Shown piece after piece: positions 4,457 to 11,639 of a DNA stretch of 34,029 nt. The position numbers and the translations under genes are program-made. The stretch comes from Syntrophaceae bacterium (GTDB lineage Bacteria > Desulfobacterota > Syntrophia > Syntrophales > UBA2185): positions 1-34,029 of the forward strand of contig PLMX01000207.1 in the NCBI GenBank assembly GCA_003142635.1, in the 5' to 3' direction. How positions within the stretch are numbered: position 1 is the stretch's first letter; every line of letters starts with the position of its first letter. The notes under the pieces are model-generated. The model had not been told where the DNA came from. It was given only the letters and a program-made list of their open reading frames with translations, and ran no database searches.

Positions 4457-5638
4457 ATGATTTCGAGACGTGATTTTTTGACAAATTGTGTGAGGCTTGC
4501 TCCCATCATCGGCGGCGCGGGCATAGTTCTCTCCGATCCCTTCTGGCAGGGGCTTTTGTCTGGCGACGATTTCGGCGTCGCACTCGCAGGCAATTCCGCA
4601 GATGCGATAGATGCGCTGGTGCAGTCCGCGCCCCGGGCGCGTTACTGGACTTCCCTGCACAAAGACAACGTCGTCAGATGCTTCCTGTGCCCACATAACT
4701 GTATCATCGGTGATGGCGAGCGGGGCAAATGCCGCACACGCGTGAACGTTAAGGGTGGGCTGCGGAGCCTCGTCTATGGCCGGCCGGTGAGCATCCATGT
4801 CGATCCGATAGAGAAGAAACCTTTTTATCACTTCCTGCCCGGGGTCCAAGCCTATTCCCTCGCTACCGCCGGTTGCCCGCTTCAGTGCAAGTGCTGCCAG
4901 AACTGGGAAATCTCTCAGGCGAGGCCGGAGGATTATCAGGGTCCGTATACTCCACCGGAAAAGATCGTCAGATCAGCATCCGCCGGCAAGACGCGCGTCG
5001 TGGCATTTACCTACAATGAGCCGACGGTCTTTGCCGAATACATGCTGGACATAGCGCGGGATGCTAAGAAGCAAGGCCTCCGCTGTGCATTGATAAGCTG
5101 CGGATTCGTAAACGAGACGCCTCTTGCGGAAATGTGCAAGGCGCTTGACGCGATCAAGATAGACCTGAAGGGCTACAGCGAGGATTTTTATCGCAACGTG
5201 TGCGGTGCGGAGCTGAAGCCCGTGCTTGCAGGCATCAAACAGATAGCCAAGAGCCGCGCCCATCTCGAGATCGTTAACCTCGTGGTCCCCACATTGAACG
5301 ATTCCGACAAAATGCTCCTGGATCTGATAGACTGGGTATTGGGCGAATGCGGCCCCGACGTGCCCCTGCACTTCTCCCGTTTCCATCCCGCCTACCAGAT
5401 GCTCAATCTCCCACCCACGCCTGTAGCCACTCTCGAGCGTGCGCGTGACATGGCTCTCAGCAGAGGCATTCACTTTCCATACGTGGGAAATGTGCCGAGT
5501 CATCCGGGGGATAATACTTATTGCCCGAGCTGCAAGAAAGCCTTGATACAAAGGCAGGGCTTTTTCGTCACGGAGATGAATATAAAAAATGGACGCTGCA
5601 AATTCTGCAGCCGGAAAATCGCAGGAGTCTGGGTATAG
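4457..5638 (+). CDS. amrS: AmmeMemoRadiSam system radical SAM enzyme with Tat-like signal
   Basis: Radical SAM protein of 393 residues matching the AmrS family, whose substrate is unknown. An N-terminal cysteine set (C75, C78, C82 and C92 in CFLCPHNC...GKC) is followed by the SAM-cluster motif CPLQCKCC, with C140, C144 and C147 in CX3CX2C spacing. A C-terminal ribbon has two further Cys pairs (CPSC, CKFC). The N-terminus MISRRDFL is a twin-arginine consensus, followed by a mildly hydrophobic stretch and a possible ALA cleavage site at 42-44. Tat export would fit a folded Fe-S protein, but a SAM-dependent enzyme outside the cytoplasm would be surprising; the segment could instead be retained as an anchor. 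It lies 17 bp before the AmrB-AmrA fusion and starts the operon. Family is certain, location inferred. Confidence 0.93.
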   Translation: MISRRDFLTNCVRLAPIIGGAGIVLSDPFWQGLLSGDDFGVALAGNSADAIDALVQSAPRARYWTSLHKDNVVRCFLCPHNCIIGDGERGKCRTRVNVKGGLRSLVYGRPVSIHVDPIEKKPFYHFLPGVQAYSLATAGCPLQCKCCQNWEISQARPEDYQGPYTPPEKIVRSASAGKTRVVAFTYNEPTVFAEYMLDIARDAKKQGLRCALISCGFVNETPLAEMCKALDAIKIDLKGYSEDFYRNVCGAELKPVLAGIKQIAKSRAHLEIVNLVVPTLNDSDKMLLDLIDWVLGECGPDVPLHFSRFHPAYQMLNLPPTPVATLERARDMALSRGIHFPYVGNVPSHPGDNTYCPSCKKALIQRQGFFVTEMNIKNGRCKFCSRKIAGVWV

Positions 5639-5655
5639 AAAGAGGTCATCAAAAA

Positions 5656-7194
5656 ATGAAGATTCTGAGATGGTGTGCTGTACTATTCGTCGTTAGTCTT
5701 GGTTTTGCTCTCGCGTGTCAGGCTACGAAAGCGCCGGACGCTGACGTTCGCGAACCTGCAGTGGCGGGAGCATTCTACCCGGATTCCGCATCCAAACTGA
5801 AGCTCGACATTAAAAAATTCATGGAGGAAGCCCTCCCCGCCAGGACCAAGGATGTTGTGGCCATTCTCGTCCCGCATGCGGGCTACATCTATTCCGGCCA
5901 GATATGCGCCGACGCGTTTGCGCAGGTTAAGGACAAACAGTATGACGTGATCGTCATCCTCGGAACAAATCACACAACCCCGGGATTTGAAAAAATTTCT
6001 CTCTATCCGGGGACAGGATTCCGCACGCCGCTCGGCATCGCGCCGATCGAAAGAGAAGTCGTCTCTGAAATCCTGGCTGCGGACCCCCACGATTGTGTAT
6101 TGGATAAGTCGGTCCACGCGCGTGAACACTCGGTTGAAGTGATAGTGCCGTTTGTCCAGGTCGTTTTTCCTGAGGCGAAGATCGTCCCCGTTGTCGTTGG
6201 CTCTCCCGATGTGGCCATGTGCACGCGCTTCGGCCGAGCCCTGGCGAAGGTATTGAAAAACAAGCGCGCATTGCTAGTCGCCAGTTCCGACCTTTCCCAC
6301 TATCCTGCGGCGGAGGATGCAGTCGCAGTGGACAGGAAGACCCTTAAGGCGATTACAACGCTTGACCCTGCCCTGCTGCACTCGGTCACCGAATCGCAGA
6401 TGAATATGCGAGTCCCCAATCTCGTTACCTGCGCCTGCGGAGAGGCGCCCGCCATGGCCGCCATGGCGGCGGCGAAAGCCTTGGGCGCCACGCAAGGTGA
6501 AATTATAAAATATACGAACTCCGGAGATGTCCCTTTCGGTGATAAGTCGAGGGTCGTCGGCTACGGCGCAGTCGTCCTGACCAGAGACGCCAGCGAAAAG
6601 AACGTGAGCAAAGGGGATGTCCCCTCCCCTGCTCTTCTTTCTGAACCGCTCAGCCTCTCCGACAAGAAGGCCCTGCTTACCTTTGCGAGGGAAAGCATAT
6701 CCAGAAAATTTTCGACTGATACAGTTCCCCTGGCCAGAGGTTTCAGTGCGAATCTCCAGCAGCCACGGGGCGTTTTCGTAACACTCAAGAAAAAAAATGA
6801 GCTCCGCGGTTGCATCGGCCGGATAATAGGAGACGAACCACTCGGGAAGCTCACAGGCGCCATGGCTTGGCACTCAGCATTTGATGACCCGCGCTTCAAC
6901 CCGGTGACCGCCGATGAGCTTCGTGACATCGAAATCGAGATATCGGTGCTCACTCCGTTGAAAGAGGTTTCCGGCCCCGAGCAAATAGTCGTCGGGCGGG
7001 ACGGTGTTCTGCTCGTAAAACAGGGACGTTCGGCCGTCTTCCTTCCCCAGGTGGCTACAGAACAGAAATGGAACCGCGACGAAACGCTCGATAACCTCTG
7101 TGCAAAAGCGGATCTCCCCCGCGGATGCTGGAAACAGGGCGCGCAATTGTTAACCTTCCAGGCAGTGGTGTTCAGCGAGGCGGACTTCAAGTAA
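5656..7194 (+). CDS. amrB-amrA: AmrB-AmrA fusion (Memo domain + AMMECR1 domain) with lipoprotein-like signal
   Basis: One polypeptide of 512 residues joins the Memo-like AmrB part (about 33-310) to the AMMECR1-like AmrA part (about 335-510). Memo metal-site candidates are H74 (VPHAGY), H106 (GTNHT), H215 (SDLSHY) and C261, equivalent by pattern to the His/His/His/Cys set of human MEMO1. The AMMECR1 signature LRGCIG lies at 383-388. I chose ATG 5656, preceded by an AG-rich site and directly followed by a signal peptide MKILRWCAVLFVVSLGFALA with C21 as a possible lipidated cysteine (ALAC, an imperfect lipobox). An upstream in-frame ATG at 5521 lies inside amrS and would bury the signal. A 5-bp gap separates it from the next gene. 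The family function is unknown; tripartite association with AmrS is established. Confidence 0.92.
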   Translation: MKILRWCAVLFVVSLGFALACQATKAPDADVREPAVAGAFYPDSASKLKLDIKKFMEEALPARTKDVVAILVPHAGYIYSGQICADAFAQVKDKQYDVIVILGTNHTTPGFEKISLYPGTGFRTPLGIAPIEREVVSEILAADPHDCVLDKSVHAREHSVEVIVPFVQVVFPEAKIVPVVVGSPDVAMCTRFGRALAKVLKNKRALLVASSDLSHYPAAEDAVAVDRKTLKAITTLDPALLHSVTESQMNMRVPNLVTCACGEAPAMAAMAAAKALGATQGEIIKYTNSGDVPFGDKSRVVGYGAVVLTRDASEKNVSKGDVPSPALLSEPLSLSDKKALLTFARESISRKFSTDTVPLARGFSANLQQPRGVFVTLKKKNELRGCIGRIIGDEPLGKLTGAMAWHSAFDDPRFNPVTADELRDIEIEISVLTPLKEVSGPEQIVVGRDGVLLVKQGRSAVFLPQVATEQKWNRDETLDNLCAKADLPRGCWKQGAQLLTFQAVVFSEADFK

Positions 7195-7199
7195 TCTCC

Positions 7200-9362
7200 A
7201 TGATCATCTCACTTTTTTCCATTGGGCTCGTTTCCATTCTGGGACAGGTCATACTGCTCAGGGAATTGAACGTGTCCTTCTATGGCGTCGAGCTGGTTTA
7301 TCTCCTGGCCCTCGGCATCTGGCTTTTTTGGACAGCCATAGGGGCGCTTGTCGGCCGCCGCACTGATTTTCCCTCAGGTAAAGCTCTTGCGCTCCTTTTT
7401 ATTTTCTTCGGAATCCTTCTTCCCCTCGATATCGTATTCATCCGCGCGAGCCGTCTACTCGTGGGCGGCGTGCCAGGTGCATACCTCAGCTTCCTCCAGC
7501 AATTTACGATTGCTGTCATTTCACTCATGCCCGCGGCAATACTGTCCGGCATTCTATTCCAGTTCACTGCAAAGTTATACGTTGCGAAGGGAAAAGCAGT
7601 GGCCATTGCCTACGCCATCGAGAGTATCGGCGGGTTGATGGGCGGCCTGGCCGCAACCCTTTTCCTCAAATGGGGAATGCAGAACTTTGCCATCGCCTTT
7701 GCATGCGCTTTCGCTGCAGTGATCACCCCCCTTGTGTTTCTAAAACCAAAGAGAACATCCCCATTGCAATGGACGGCGACAGTCCTCGCATGTATCCTTC
7801 TCCTGCTCTTCTGGAAGGCATTTCCCCTCGATCATCTTATGGTTGCCTGGAACCATCCGAATCTGCTTGCCAGTAAAGACTCTCCATACGGCAGAATCAC
7901 TGTCGCACAATCGTATGGGCAAATCTCAGTTTTCGAAAATGACGCCCTTGCCTTTGATACTGAAGGAACAGAAGCCGAATACTTCACCAATCTGGCGGCC
8001 CTCCAGCACGCAAATCCCGAGCAGGTCTTGATCCTGGGAGGAGGGATTGAAGGGATCGTCAGAGAGATGCAAAAATACAAACCGAAGAGTATCGATTACG
8101 TGGAACTGAATCCTGTCATGCTCGATCTGGTCACGCAACATCTTCCCGGTGAGATTCAGAAATCCTTGAGCGAACCGAATGTCCGCATTACCCTCGCCGA
8201 TCCGCGCCGCTTTCTGAAAGACAGCGGCAGGTATGATCTCATACTGGTCGGCATGCCGGAACCAGCGTCGGGCCAGGCAAACCGTTTTTATACGAAGGAG
8301 TTCTTCGAACTTTGCGGAGCGAAACTGAATCCCGGAGGCATTCTCGCTTTCCGGCTCCGGTCGGCAGAAAACATCTGGACACTGCCGCTCATGCGGCGCA
8401 CTGTGAGCATCTGCCGCGCCCTCGAAACTGTTTTTCCTGAGATATTGTTTCTTCCGGGACAGACGAATATCATCACGGCCTCCCGCGCGCAATTGCCGCG
8501 GACGCCGGAGATCATGTCCCGGCGCCTCCTGGATCGAAAAATTGCTACACGGCTGGTTTCACCGAATTACATCAGATACCTCTTTACGAACGACAGATTT
8601 GGCGAAATCAAAAATATGCTGAGGACGGAAGCTGCACCCGCAAACACCGATGTCAGGCCTGTCTGCTACCAGTATGCCTTAACGATCTGGCTCTCAAAAT
8701 TCTTCCCCGGCATTGCCTTGGTAGATTTTTCTTCCCTTCCGGATAAGATCGCGGCAAGACCTGCCCTGCCGCTTCTGCTTTGGATCAGCCTGCCGCTTCT
8801 GTTTCTGCTCTCCCGCTTCGCGCCTTCCTGCCGTCGCGTCTTGCTGGTCGCTGCCGCAGGCTTTCTCGGCATGGTTCTCGAAACAATCCTCATTCTCTAT
8901 TACCAGGTGAAATACGGGGTACTCTATCAGGATATAGGGCTCCTGCTTATGAGTTTCATGGCGGGGCTTGCCCTCGGTGCAATGAGCATTGAGAGATTGA
9001 TGGCCAGGTTCGCCGATCGACCAAGATTGGTCAGATGGTATGGCGTCGCGCTGCTTGCCGGATTTTGTTTCCTGTGCGTAGTGACAGCAACCCGGCTGAC
9101 GGTGAGCGCGGCAACGGGTTTGCTGCAAACCTCATGGTTCCTTATGGCGGCGGGATTTCCTGTTGCCGGTATTTTTGCCTACGCGACCCTTTACGAAATA
9201 AAAGACCAAAGAAGCGTAATCTCTCCCCTCTACGCAGCGGACTTGCTGGGAGGATGCGCCGGCTCTCTTCTCGGCAGCCTTCTTTTAATTCCGGTGCTGG
9301 GTCTCGATATCACAACGCAAGGGATGCTTCTCCTCGCCGCCTTTTCTATTCTTCTCGTTTAG
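7200..9362 (+). CDS. Polytopic membrane protein with embedded spermidine-synthase-like domain
   Basis: A 720-residue protein with about seven hydrophobic helices (7-208), a soluble Rossmann domain (about 225-510) and about seven more helices (525-720). The middle has the SAM/dcSAM-binding pattern LILGGGIEGI (277-286) and the acidic YVELNP (300-305), typical of spermidine-synthase-like domains. Where true aminopropyltransferases have the catalytic DS[ST]DP, this protein reads GMPEP (351-355), so polyamine synthesis is doubtful. The two membrane halves look like repeats: YAIESIGGLMGG (138-149) matches YAADLLGGCAGS (678-689). The start at 7200 is 5 bp after the AmrB-AmrA stop, indicating translational coupling; an ATG at 7125 would overlap that gene. 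The context makes it a candidate membrane partner of the AmmeMemoRadiSam proteins. Function unknown. Confidence 0.85.
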   Translation: MIISLFSIGLVSILGQVILLRELNVSFYGVELVYLLALGIWLFWTAIGALVGRRTDFPSGKALALLFIFFGILLPLDIVFIRASRLLVGGVPGAYLSFLQQFTIAVISLMPAAILSGILFQFTAKLYVAKGKAVAIAYAIESIGGLMGGLAATLFLKWGMQNFAIAFACAFAAVITPLVFLKPKRTSPLQWTATVLACILLLLFWKAFPLDHLMVAWNHPNLLASKDSPYGRITVAQSYGQISVFENDALAFDTEGTEAEYFTNLAALQHANPEQVLILGGGIEGIVREMQKYKPKSIDYVELNPVMLDLVTQHLPGEIQKSLSEPNVRITLADPRRFLKDSGRYDLILVGMPEPASGQANRFYTKEFFELCGAKLNPGGILAFRLRSAENIWTLPLMRRTVSICRALETVFPEILFLPGQTNIITASRAQLPRTPEIMSRRLLDRKIATRLVSPNYIRYLFTNDRFGEIKNMLRTEAAPANTDVRPVCYQYALTIWLSKFFPGIALVDFSSLPDKIAARPALPLLLWISLPLLFLLSRFAPSCRRVLLVAAAGFLGMVLETILILYYQVKYGVLYQDIGLLLMSFMAGLALGAMSIERLMARFADRPRLVRWYGVALLAGFCFLCVVTATRLTVSAATGLLQTSWFLMAAGFPVAGIFAYATLYEIKDQRSVISPLYAADLLGGCAGSLLGSLLLIPVLGLDITTQGMLLLAAFSILLV

Positions 9363-9372
9363 AGTTAATCGT

Positions 9373-9401
9373 TTGACACATGGAATCTATTTTCCTATAA
9401 T
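9373..9401 (+). promoter_or_regulatory. Perfect-consensus sigma-70 promoter
   Basis: TTGACA (9373-9378), a 17-bp spacer and TATAAT (9396-9401) match the sigma-70 consensus at every position. It begins 11 bp after the membrane-protein stop and predicts a start near 9408. This supports ATG 9442, not the upstream TTG, as the start of the next gene, with a leader of about 34 nt. Confidence 0.85.
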
Positions 9402-9441
9402 CCCATTCAAAGACATTCATTGCAGCAGGAGGAAAATCTCG

Positions 9442-11088
9442 ATGGCGAAGATTACTGGCGGGCAACTGGCAGCGAGAACACTGAAGCAGATAGGCGTTAC
9501 AACCGTATTCACTCTTTCCGGCGGCCACATCATCGATATCTACAACGGCTTTGTGGATGAGGGGATCAGGATCATCGACGTGCGGCATGAGCAAACGGCA
9601 GCCCATGCCGCTGAGGCGTGGACAAGGCTTACTGGTTCTCCCGGCGTTGCTGTGGTGACGGCCGGTCCCGGCGTGACCGACGCCATCACCGGCATAGCCA
9701 ATGCCTTCCGCAACCAGGTACCCATGCTTGTAATCGGCGGTCAGGCCCCGCGGAAGCAGCTTCTAAAAGGCGGGCTACAGGAGCTCGACCATGTTGCGCT
9801 CACGAAACCCATAACCAAGCTTTCCATCTCTATTTCCGATACGGAGCGCATTCCCGAATTAATCGCCACCGCCTTGAGAGAGGCGTATAACGGGCGTCCG
9901 GGACCGTCCTTTATCGAAATCCCCATAGACGTGCTGGATAATGCTGTGGACCTCGATACGGTCACCTTCCCTTCATACATACGTTCACAGGGGCGCAAAT
10001 ACGGCGACCCCGCTCTCATCAAAGAGGCGGCAGAGCTGCTGGAAAAGGCCGAGAGGCCGGCCATCATCGCAGGCACGCAGGTGTGGTACTGCCGCGCCGA
10101 TGACGAGATCTCGACATTTGTGGACAAGGCCTGCATCCCCACCTATCTCAACGGCGCTGCGAGGGGATGCCTTTCCGGTGATTGTCCCTCTTTCATGGTC
10201 CGCTCGCGAAGGCACGCCCTTTCCAAGGCCGATGTGGTCATGGTTATCGGCACGCCCTTTGATTTCAGACTCGCATACGGCAACCGCATCGCGAAAGATG
10301 CAAAGGTAATTCAGGTAGATTTAGACTACGGTGAACTGGGACACAACAGAGAAATCGCAATTGGCATCGAGGGCGATATAAAGGCGGTGCTCACGCAGCT
10401 TACAGAAGTGTTCACGACTTCTCGGCGGGGCGGAGGATGGCTCGATGAACTGTGTCAGCTCGAAAAGAAATTGCTCGATAAAGACAGGCCGTACCTTGAA
10501 TCCGATGCCGTGCCCATCCATCCCCTGCGCCTCGCGAGCGAGATTAAGGCATTCATGCGGGAAGACACAATCTTTATCGCCGACGGTGGGGACGTGGTGA
10601 CAATGTCCGCGAGCGTCGTCACACCGTGCATACCAGGGCGCTGGCTCGACCCGGGTCCCTTAGGCACCCTCGGCGTGGGGACGCCGTTTGCCATCGCCGC
10701 CAAAGCGGCCATGCCTGATACGGAGGTTATCGTCCTCTTCGGTGACGGGGCCTTCGGACTGACGGGCTTTGATTATGATACGCTCATCCGCTTCAATATG
10801 CCGGTAATCGGTATCGTGGCAAACAATGCAGCATGGAATCAGGTTCGCTACGGACAGATGGAAAGATACGGCCGGGCGCGCGGCGAGGTGGCGAATGTAC
10901 TCAGTCCGCTTCGTTATGACCGCGTGGTGGAGGCCATGGGCGGCTACGGCGAGAATGTCACCGAACCCGCACAGATCCGCCCTGCCCTTGAGCGGGCACG
11001 TCAGTCCGGAAAGCCGTCTTTGATAAATGTGATGGTGGACCCGAATGTATTCAGTTCCGGCACGATGACACAATCCATGTTTAAATAA
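9442..11088 (+). CDS. Thiamine diphosphate-binding protein (acetolactate synthase/2-hydroxyacyl-CoA lyase-like)
   Basis: A ThDP enzyme of 548 residues. The N-terminal pyrimidine-binding domain has the activating glutamate in VRHEQTAAHAAEAW (about 47-60) and GPGVTDAITG. The central domain follows (about 190-325). The C-terminal pyrophosphate-binding domain has GDGAFGLT...NN (about 434-462), the Mg/ThDP motif. It resembles large subunits of acetohydroxyacid synthase, but no small regulatory subunit or branched-chain amino acid gene is nearby, so an oxalyl-CoA decarboxylase, 2-hydroxyacyl-CoA lyase or other role is equally possible. GGAGG lies 10 nt before ATG 9442. Transcription is likely from the perfect promoter just upstream, and the DUF4124-glutaredoxin gene follows 26 bp later. 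The family is certain, the substrate unknown. Confidence 0.85.
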   Translation: MAKITGGQLAARTLKQIGVTTVFTLSGGHIIDIYNGFVDEGIRIIDVRHEQTAAHAAEAWTRLTGSPGVAVVTAGPGVTDAITGIANAFRNQVPMLVIGGQAPRKQLLKGGLQELDHVALTKPITKLSISISDTERIPELIATALREAYNGRPGPSFIEIPIDVLDNAVDLDTVTFPSYIRSQGRKYGDPALIKEAAELLEKAERPAIIAGTQVWYCRADDEISTFVDKACIPTYLNGAARGCLSGDCPSFMVRSRRHALSKADVVMVIGTPFDFRLAYGNRIAKDAKVIQVDLDYGELGHNREIAIGIEGDIKAVLTQLTEVFTTSRRGGGWLDELCQLEKKLLDKDRPYLESDAVPIHPLRLASEIKAFMREDTIFIADGGDVVTMSASVVTPCIPGRWLDPGPLGTLGVGTPFAIAAKAAMPDTEVIVLFGDGAFGLTGFDYDTLIRFNMPVIGIVANNAAWNQVRYGQMERYGRARGEVANVLSPLRYDRVVEAMGGYGENVTEPAQIRPALERARQSGKPSLINVMVDPNVFSSGTMTQSMFK

Positions 11089-11114: not shown

Positions 11115-11639
11115 ATGAAGCAAGGGATTAAGAAAAACAAGCCTGGAAGAAAAGGGAAAGAGACAATTATATTTGTCTTCATTCTATTGGCTTTGACGCT
11201 TTATCTCTGCACCACAGCAGCGGCCGAAATTTACAAATGGGATGATGACAAAGGGGAGATGCATATCTCGGACTCGCCGCCGCCTGGGGCCAAATCAGGC
11301 GGCAAAATAGAAGTCTACAAAGACACACAGGAAGACAGCCCCGGCACGACGACGATGCCAGTCAAGAATAAAGGAGATTCAAGACCGTCCCTCGAAAGGA
11401 AGAAGAAGGCTGACGTAGTGCTCTATACTACCAGCTGGTGCCCATAATGCCGCAAGGCGCGCGAATACTTCCGGTCTCGGGGGATTGATTTCACCGAGTA
11501 TGACATAGAGAGGGACAAAGAAGCGGCAATCCGCAAAAGGCAATTGGACGGTAGAGGCGGAGTTCCCTTTGCCGTTATCAACGGCCGCTTCATCCGCGGG
11601 TTTTCTGCATCGGCATATGACAGGGCGCTGCAAGAATAG
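11115..11639 (+). pseudogene. DUF4124-glutaredoxin protein interrupted by in-frame TAA in the CPxC motif
   Basis: The frame from ATG 11115 (GGAG 5 nt upstream) encodes a signal peptide/anchor (about 22-37), a DUF4124 segment (EIYKWDDDKGEMHISDSPPP) and the start of a glutaredoxin fold (DVVLYTTSWCP). It stops at TAA 11445-11447, codon 111. The same frame then continues without another stop to TAG 11637-11639, reading CRKAREYFRSRGIDF and GGVPFAVINGRFIRGFS, the rest of a typical glutaredoxin with its cis-Pro site. The stop occupies the third motif position, C-P-stop-C, where homologues commonly have Tyr; TAC or TAT to TAA is one substitution. The remainder shows no other lesion, so the break is very recent, a sequencing error or, least likely, read through. 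The 110-residue truncated product would lack a working redox site. Confidence 0.85.

Follow-up and report, generated by a model that had tools for sequence, protein, structure and literature searches.

The window analysed here, a 34,029-nucleotide stretch of DNA from a Syntrophaceae bacterium, carries a three-gene operon that is best read, on balance, as encoding a variant of the AmmeMemoRadiSam system that is located outside the cytoplasm and has a SAM-handling membrane partner of its own. Confidence differs between the parts of this reading. An extracytoplasmic location is well supported by sequence and is very probable, no protein having been localised, and it is almost as probable that AmrS and AmrB-AmrA work together with the membrane protein as one unit. 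The supply of SAM by the membrane protein and a haem-based reduction are inferred, and both are put forward tentatively.

AmmeMemoRadiSam, Memo and AMMECR1 are already known; what is new is the exported version with its membrane partner, here designated SpdS-TM. No description of a radical SAM enzyme bearing a Tat signal, or of an exported form of AmmeMemoRadiSam, was found in the open-access literature, most subscription journals being outside the scope of the search. To our knowledge, SAM chemistry has been assumed to be confined to the cytoplasm, and we know of no bacterial function established for the AmmeMemoRadiSam, Memo or AMMECR1 families. A widespread exported set, if confirmed, would imply that SAM is present in the periplasm, along with a means of delivering it, and would open a route to the function, so far unknown, of Memo and AMMECR1, both of which occur in humans too. 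AMMECR1 has been described as a marker of anaerobes (PMC13386939) and is counted among the uncharacterised archaeal proteins (PMC6393860); human MEMO1 binds copper or iron (PMC11918410).

Layout and family assignment of the locus

The features of the locus are as follows.

4457..5638, + strand: AmrS, AmmeMemoRadiSam radical SAM enzyme, 393 aa (TIGR04337 365 bits, cut-off 220)
4463..4480, + strand: twin-arginine motif SRRDFL at AmrS residues 3-8, the start of a putative Tat-type signal, with a hydrophobic stretch after it
4874..4897, + strand: radical SAM cluster motif C140-x3-C144-x2-C147, invariant in exported and cytosolic AmrS
5656..7194, + strand: AmrB-AmrA fusion (Memo and AMMECR1), 512 aa (TIGR04336 257 bits, cut-off 26; TIGR04335 169 bits, cut-off 99; PF01875 209 bits; PF01871 173 bits)
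5656..5718, + strand: signal peptide of AmrB-AmrA with lipobox-like ALAC (Cys21)
5752..6573, + strand: Memo (AmrB) domain
6679..7173, + strand: AMMECR1 (AmrA) domain with LRGCIG motif
7200..9362, + strand: SpdS-TM, 14-TM MFS-like membrane protein with an inserted spermidine-synthase-like domain, 720 aa
7203..7814, + strand: TM1-TM7, N-terminus predicted cytoplasmic (AlphaFold helices, positive-inside count)
7845..8762, + strand: spermidine-synthase-like domain, residues 216-521, predicted periplasmic (PF01564 74.6 bits; SpeE fold, Z 29.8)
8763..9359, + strand: TM8-TM14 (AlphaFold helices, positive-inside count)

The intergenic gaps are 17 bp (AmrS to AmrB-AmrA) and 5 bp (AmrB-AmrA to SpdS-TM), and these spacings, together with the coordinates and motifs given in an earlier note on this DNA, were all reproduced. 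Membership of the AmrA, AmrB and AmrS families, which that note had read from motifs, is now borne out by TIGR04337, TIGR04336 and TIGR04335 scores far in excess of their cut-offs. The gene clustering criterion for an AmmeMemoRadiSam system is also met, all components being adjacent, with AmrB and AmrA in one chain. Description of the third product as a 14-helix membrane protein stands, with the helices arranged as 7+7, but a spermidine-synthase-like (SAM-binding-type) domain located between the two sets of helices had been overlooked.

After the operon, positions 9373-11088 of the window encode what appears by eye to be an acetolactate-synthase-like thiamine enzyme; this gene probably does not belong to the system, as it is present only in the window and near relatives. 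Positions 11115-11447 encode a small protein with a signal-like start, the frame of which ends in a glutaredoxin-like TTSWCP, as if it had been shortened there or were extended via a recoded codon.

The genome from which the window derives (G000, with the window as contig C69) encodes a further AmrS, without a signal, on contig C180 and a separate AmrB/AmrA pair on contig C55. Because the genome keeps these, the exported set is a paralogous addition. At least two AmrS proteins above the cut-off are encoded by 23 of the 26 other cassette-bearing genomes. Contig C179 of the same genome encodes a divergent third Memo protein (L068:5457-6680) with an N-terminal extension of ~115 residues, possibly PqqD-like by eye, which is adjoined by a phosphofructokinase-like gene (L068:6883-7980). 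Memo proteins of the C179 type are also found near AmrS in loci L059, L062, L063 and L066, and a phosphofructokinase-like gene adjoins AmrS in L060 and L064.

Export signals and co-occurrence of the set

The AmrS protein of the window meets the sequence criterion for a Tat substrate, namely a twin-arginine motif followed by a hydrophobic stretch, and TatC is encoded in its own genome (261.6 bits). Signals were called throughout using motif and hydropathy scripts, with no trained predictor. Tat-like signals are found in 64 of 67 distinct AmrS proteins linked to SpdS-TM but in only 1 of 22 that are unlinked (Fisher 3e-16), a comparison that takes in 80 named loci from the search for the membrane protein. 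The sole signal-bearing unlinked AmrS (L177) comes from the Desulfonema magnum genome, whose SpdS-TM is encoded elsewhere. The three linked proteins without a Tat call are those of L095 (at a contig edge), L113 (N-terminus unresolved by the script) and L149, a Patescibacterial AmrS in which an N-terminal membrane anchor replaces the Tat signal of other members.

The pattern [ST]-R-R-x-[FLI] is present near the N-terminus of 63 of the 64 signal-bearing distinct cassette-linked AmrS proteins, compared with 0.6% of shuffled N-termini, and is not the product of chance. Across 60 relatives the AmrS proteins split into two score groups. When complete signal-bearing AmrS proteins are aligned, RR is present in all of them, whereas cytosolic AmrS proteins start directly at the domain. 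Among AmrS proteins from SpdS-TM genomes in the phylum sample (n = 31), 24 have RR signals, the corresponding motif reads KR in 5, and the remaining two have a hydrophobic N-terminus in which the motif is unresolved. A strictly single origin for the exported AmrS clade was not upheld and holds only approximately: in the tree, L149 sits on a long branch among the unlinked proteins, whereas L177 groups with the linked ones.

In AmrB-AmrA of the window, Cys21, singled out earlier as a possible lipobox residue, lies within the lipobox-like sequence ALAC. Of the 66 relatives whose start could be read, 61 have a hydrophobic stretch, as signal or anchor, that exceeds the set cut-off. A lipobox was detected by simple pattern in 30 of these 66 and is missing from others.

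The membrane partner is nearly always found with the exported set and is mostly missing from genomes with the signal-less set alone, which makes the question directly testable. In a sample of 60 genomes from the order, 29 encode both an exported-type AmrS and SpdS-TM, none AmrS only, three SpdS-TM only and 28 neither (p 4e-14). The equivalent figures for the phylum sample of 247 genomes, in which the AmrS groups were set by score, are 77, nine, four and 157 (p ~3e-48), with SpdS-TM present in 77/86 genomes with an exported-type AmrS. Of the nine phylum genomes with AmrS only, four have signals (KR in one case) and five look cytosolic, leaving as exceptions four genomes with signal-bearing AmrS but no detected SpdS-TM and four with SpdS-TM but without the exported AmrS type. 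The p values overstate independence, as the genomes are related. Three genomes of one family (G021, G037 and G049) encode a lower-scoring SpdS-TM relative and no exported-type AmrS. According to the earlier note, its proposal would have been refuted by the lack of Tat or lipoprotein signals across orthologues or of conserved co-occurrence with the membrane protein; neither outcome was obtained.

The three-gene order is found in the Desulfobacterota, Latescibacterota, Bacteroidota, Ignavibacteriota, Kryptoniota, Calditrichota, KSB1, Acidobacteriota, Eisenbacteria and Chloroflexota; in the Altiarchaeota, Woesearchaeota and Nealsonbacteria the components lie near one another. All these names were taken from record titles, mostly those of MAGs. 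The set is thus spread over many phyla and occurs in some archaea as well. Analysis of neighbouring genes identified no consistently linked substrate gene, the flanks varying among loci with only the three genes constant. In Acidobacteria, a gene for a DUF362 protein with a Tat-like start adjoins that for the exported AmrS in two loci (L157:9499-10683 and L162:5832-6854, the latter assigned by Pfam).

The membrane protein, the haem motif and a possible mechanism

The AlphaFold model of SpdS-TM (mean pLDDT 89) has 7+7 helices, the long final model helix (residues 670-719) being counted as two. With loops assigned from these helices, the mean number of lysine and arginine residues is 18.2 in the predicted inside loops and 5.0 outside, with the same sense in 57/57 sequences. 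Because positive charges favour the inside loops in this way, the soluble domain is predicted to face the periplasm. This domain has the SpeE fold (1uir, Z 29.8, rmsd 2.4, 272 residues aligned) and the membrane part, which was not folded alone, has the MFS fold (9okg, Z 28.3 with 327 aligned; 8vzo, 24.1; 4ja3, 23.7), the MFS proteins aligned being SV2A, FLVCR2 and XylE (Z 23-28). Alignment to 6o64 and 3anx places GGG(I283)EG where GGGDGG would be expected and G351 at the position of the catalytic Asp. No relative whose motif was read has an acid at the I283 site, which in the synthases is the decarboxylated-SAM acid. With both of these residues lost, a canonical spermidine synthase can be rejected, but the nucleoside-site acids E302 and D334 are retained. 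In three loci (L061, L063 and L064) genes for a protein-L-isoaspartate methyltransferase, the N-terminus of which resembles a signal, and for a small membrane protein adjoin the SpdS-TM gene; this apparently exported SAM-dependent enzyme is suggestive of SAM in the periplasm but is not a general feature.

Exported and cytosolic AmrS proteins alike conserve the cysteines of the radical SAM cluster, along with the YxEPT..EY stretch and further residues of the SAM site. Given the conservation of these residues, and of E302 and D334 in SpdS-TM, SAM binding seems still to be under selection. The AlphaFold model of a close AmrS orthologue (L088) matches pyruvate formate-lyase (PFL) activating enzyme (3cb8, E 1.4e-14), an enzyme that generates a protein radical.

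Many relatives have, between signal and AmrS domain, a CxxCH motif followed by a His, found in 36/64 distinct linked AmrS proteins and 10/17 near relatives. The motif is absent from the window AmrS sequence and present in just one of 31 AmrS proteins of the more distant phylum sample; it cannot be considered universal, haem is thus not a general feature of exported AmrS and the electron source of the window protein is not accounted for by haem. That the insert is a zinc site is doubtful, and would affect the electron route only. CxxCH and a following His could also bind zinc, and next to the CxxCH lies a CxxCxxxC motif that belongs to the AmrS core, but two Chloroflexota loci (L139:2102-4448 and L140:3959-5963) have ResB and CcsA genes upstream of exported AmrS on the same strand, with CcsA adjoining, and amongst 26 genomes tested a cytochrome c assembly gene is present in 18/18 with CxxCH, the three genomes without that gene all falling amongst the eight without the motif (p 0.02).

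Taken together, these observations allow a mechanism to be outlined for the extracytoplasmic system, although much of it is inferred. AmrS would be exported via the Tat pathway, and AmrB-AmrA would also be exported, remaining attached to the membrane as a lipoprotein or through an anchor. SpdS-TM may supply SAM to the periplasmic side or hold it there, acting as an exporter or through a domain that captures and presents SAM. Exported AmrS may then cleave SAM to generate a radical on an exported target, with AmrB-AmrA either binding or positioning the target or itself being modified. The electron may come, in many relatives but not in the protein of the window, from a c-type haem beside the AmrS domain. 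The fullest version of this, in which the system is self-contained outside the cytoplasm, the MFS-like part exporting SAM, the periplasmic SpdS-like domain handing it to a Tat-exported AmrS that is haem-reduced in many lineages, and AmrS with AmrB-AmrA modifying an exported protein or lipid, is possible but should be regarded as conjecture. SAM and low-potential reductants are cytoplasmic, the periplasm is not known to contain available SAM, and the open-access literature searched yielded no SAM exporter.

AmrS might instead be exported but no longer perform SAM chemistry, serving in the periplasm as a redox protein with iron-sulfur and, in some relatives, haem, and with the SpdS-like domain as a ligand sensor or scaffold. 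Such a role would explain export without periplasmic SAM, a haem motif in 36/64 proteins suits electron transfer, and the SpdS-like domain lacks both the catalytic Asp (G351) and the GGGD acid. Nevertheless we consider it unlikely, since it leaves unexplained the conserved radical SAM cysteines, YxEPT..EY stretch and SAM-site residues of exported and cytosolic AmrS, and the retained nucleoside-site acids E302 and D334.

A still weaker case can be made that the signals merely attach the proteins to the inner face of the membrane or direct them there, the chemistry taking place inside the cell, with its SAM and reductant; an uncleaved signal sequence can function as a membrane anchor. This is improbable given a full Tat motif maintained across distant phyla, lipoprotein or Sec-type signals on AmrB-AmrA, a charge bias that sets the SpdS-like domain outside in 57/57 sequences, and CxxCH motifs with neighbouring ResB/CcsA genes that indicate the outer face, where haem c attachment occurs. 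Retention as a mere membrane anchor, the alternative offered in the earlier note, is likewise made less likely by the AmrB-AmrA signals, the SpdS-TM topology, CxxCH in many AmrS proteins and the L149 anchor. The inference in that note of a single extracytoplasmic or membrane-associated modification system is supported by the signals and co-occurrence, with nothing as yet shown experimentally.

Comparison with known systems

The closest solved structure to AmrS is that of the PFL-activating enzyme (3cb8), which differs in being cytoplasmic, without a signal and without an AmrB/AmrA partner. SpdS-TM shares its soluble fold and nucleoside-site residues E302 and D334 with spermidine synthase (the aminopropyltransferase SpeE) but lacks the decarboxylated-SAM acid and catalytic Asp and is fused to a transporter-like membrane part. 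That part has the fold of MFS transporters, with the difference that SpdS-TM has 14 helices and a soluble domain between TM7 and TM8; transport is only inferred. Against the family of fused MFS/spermidine synthases (NF037959) it scores 28.9, under the cut-off of 40.

An architectural precedent, though not a functional proof, is NHMT, a fungal seven-transmembrane N-terminal histidine methyltransferase that combines a 7TM region with a spermidine-synthase-like domain and methylates secreted proteins (PMC10349129). Both proteins have seven TM helices followed by an SpdS-like domain in which Ile replaces the acid of GxG(D/E)G. In SpdS-TM, however, the helices are 7+7, the domain lies mid-chain and the membrane fold is MFS-like; no methyltransferase activity has been shown for it, nor has homology of the membrane parts been established.

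With respect to the AmmeMemoRadiSam system itself, the three defining proteins, the cluster and SAM motifs of AmrS and the LRGCIG motif of AMMECR1 are all kept here, to which the window set adds export signals, an AmrB-AmrA fusion, a fixed membrane partner and a coexisting signal-less set.
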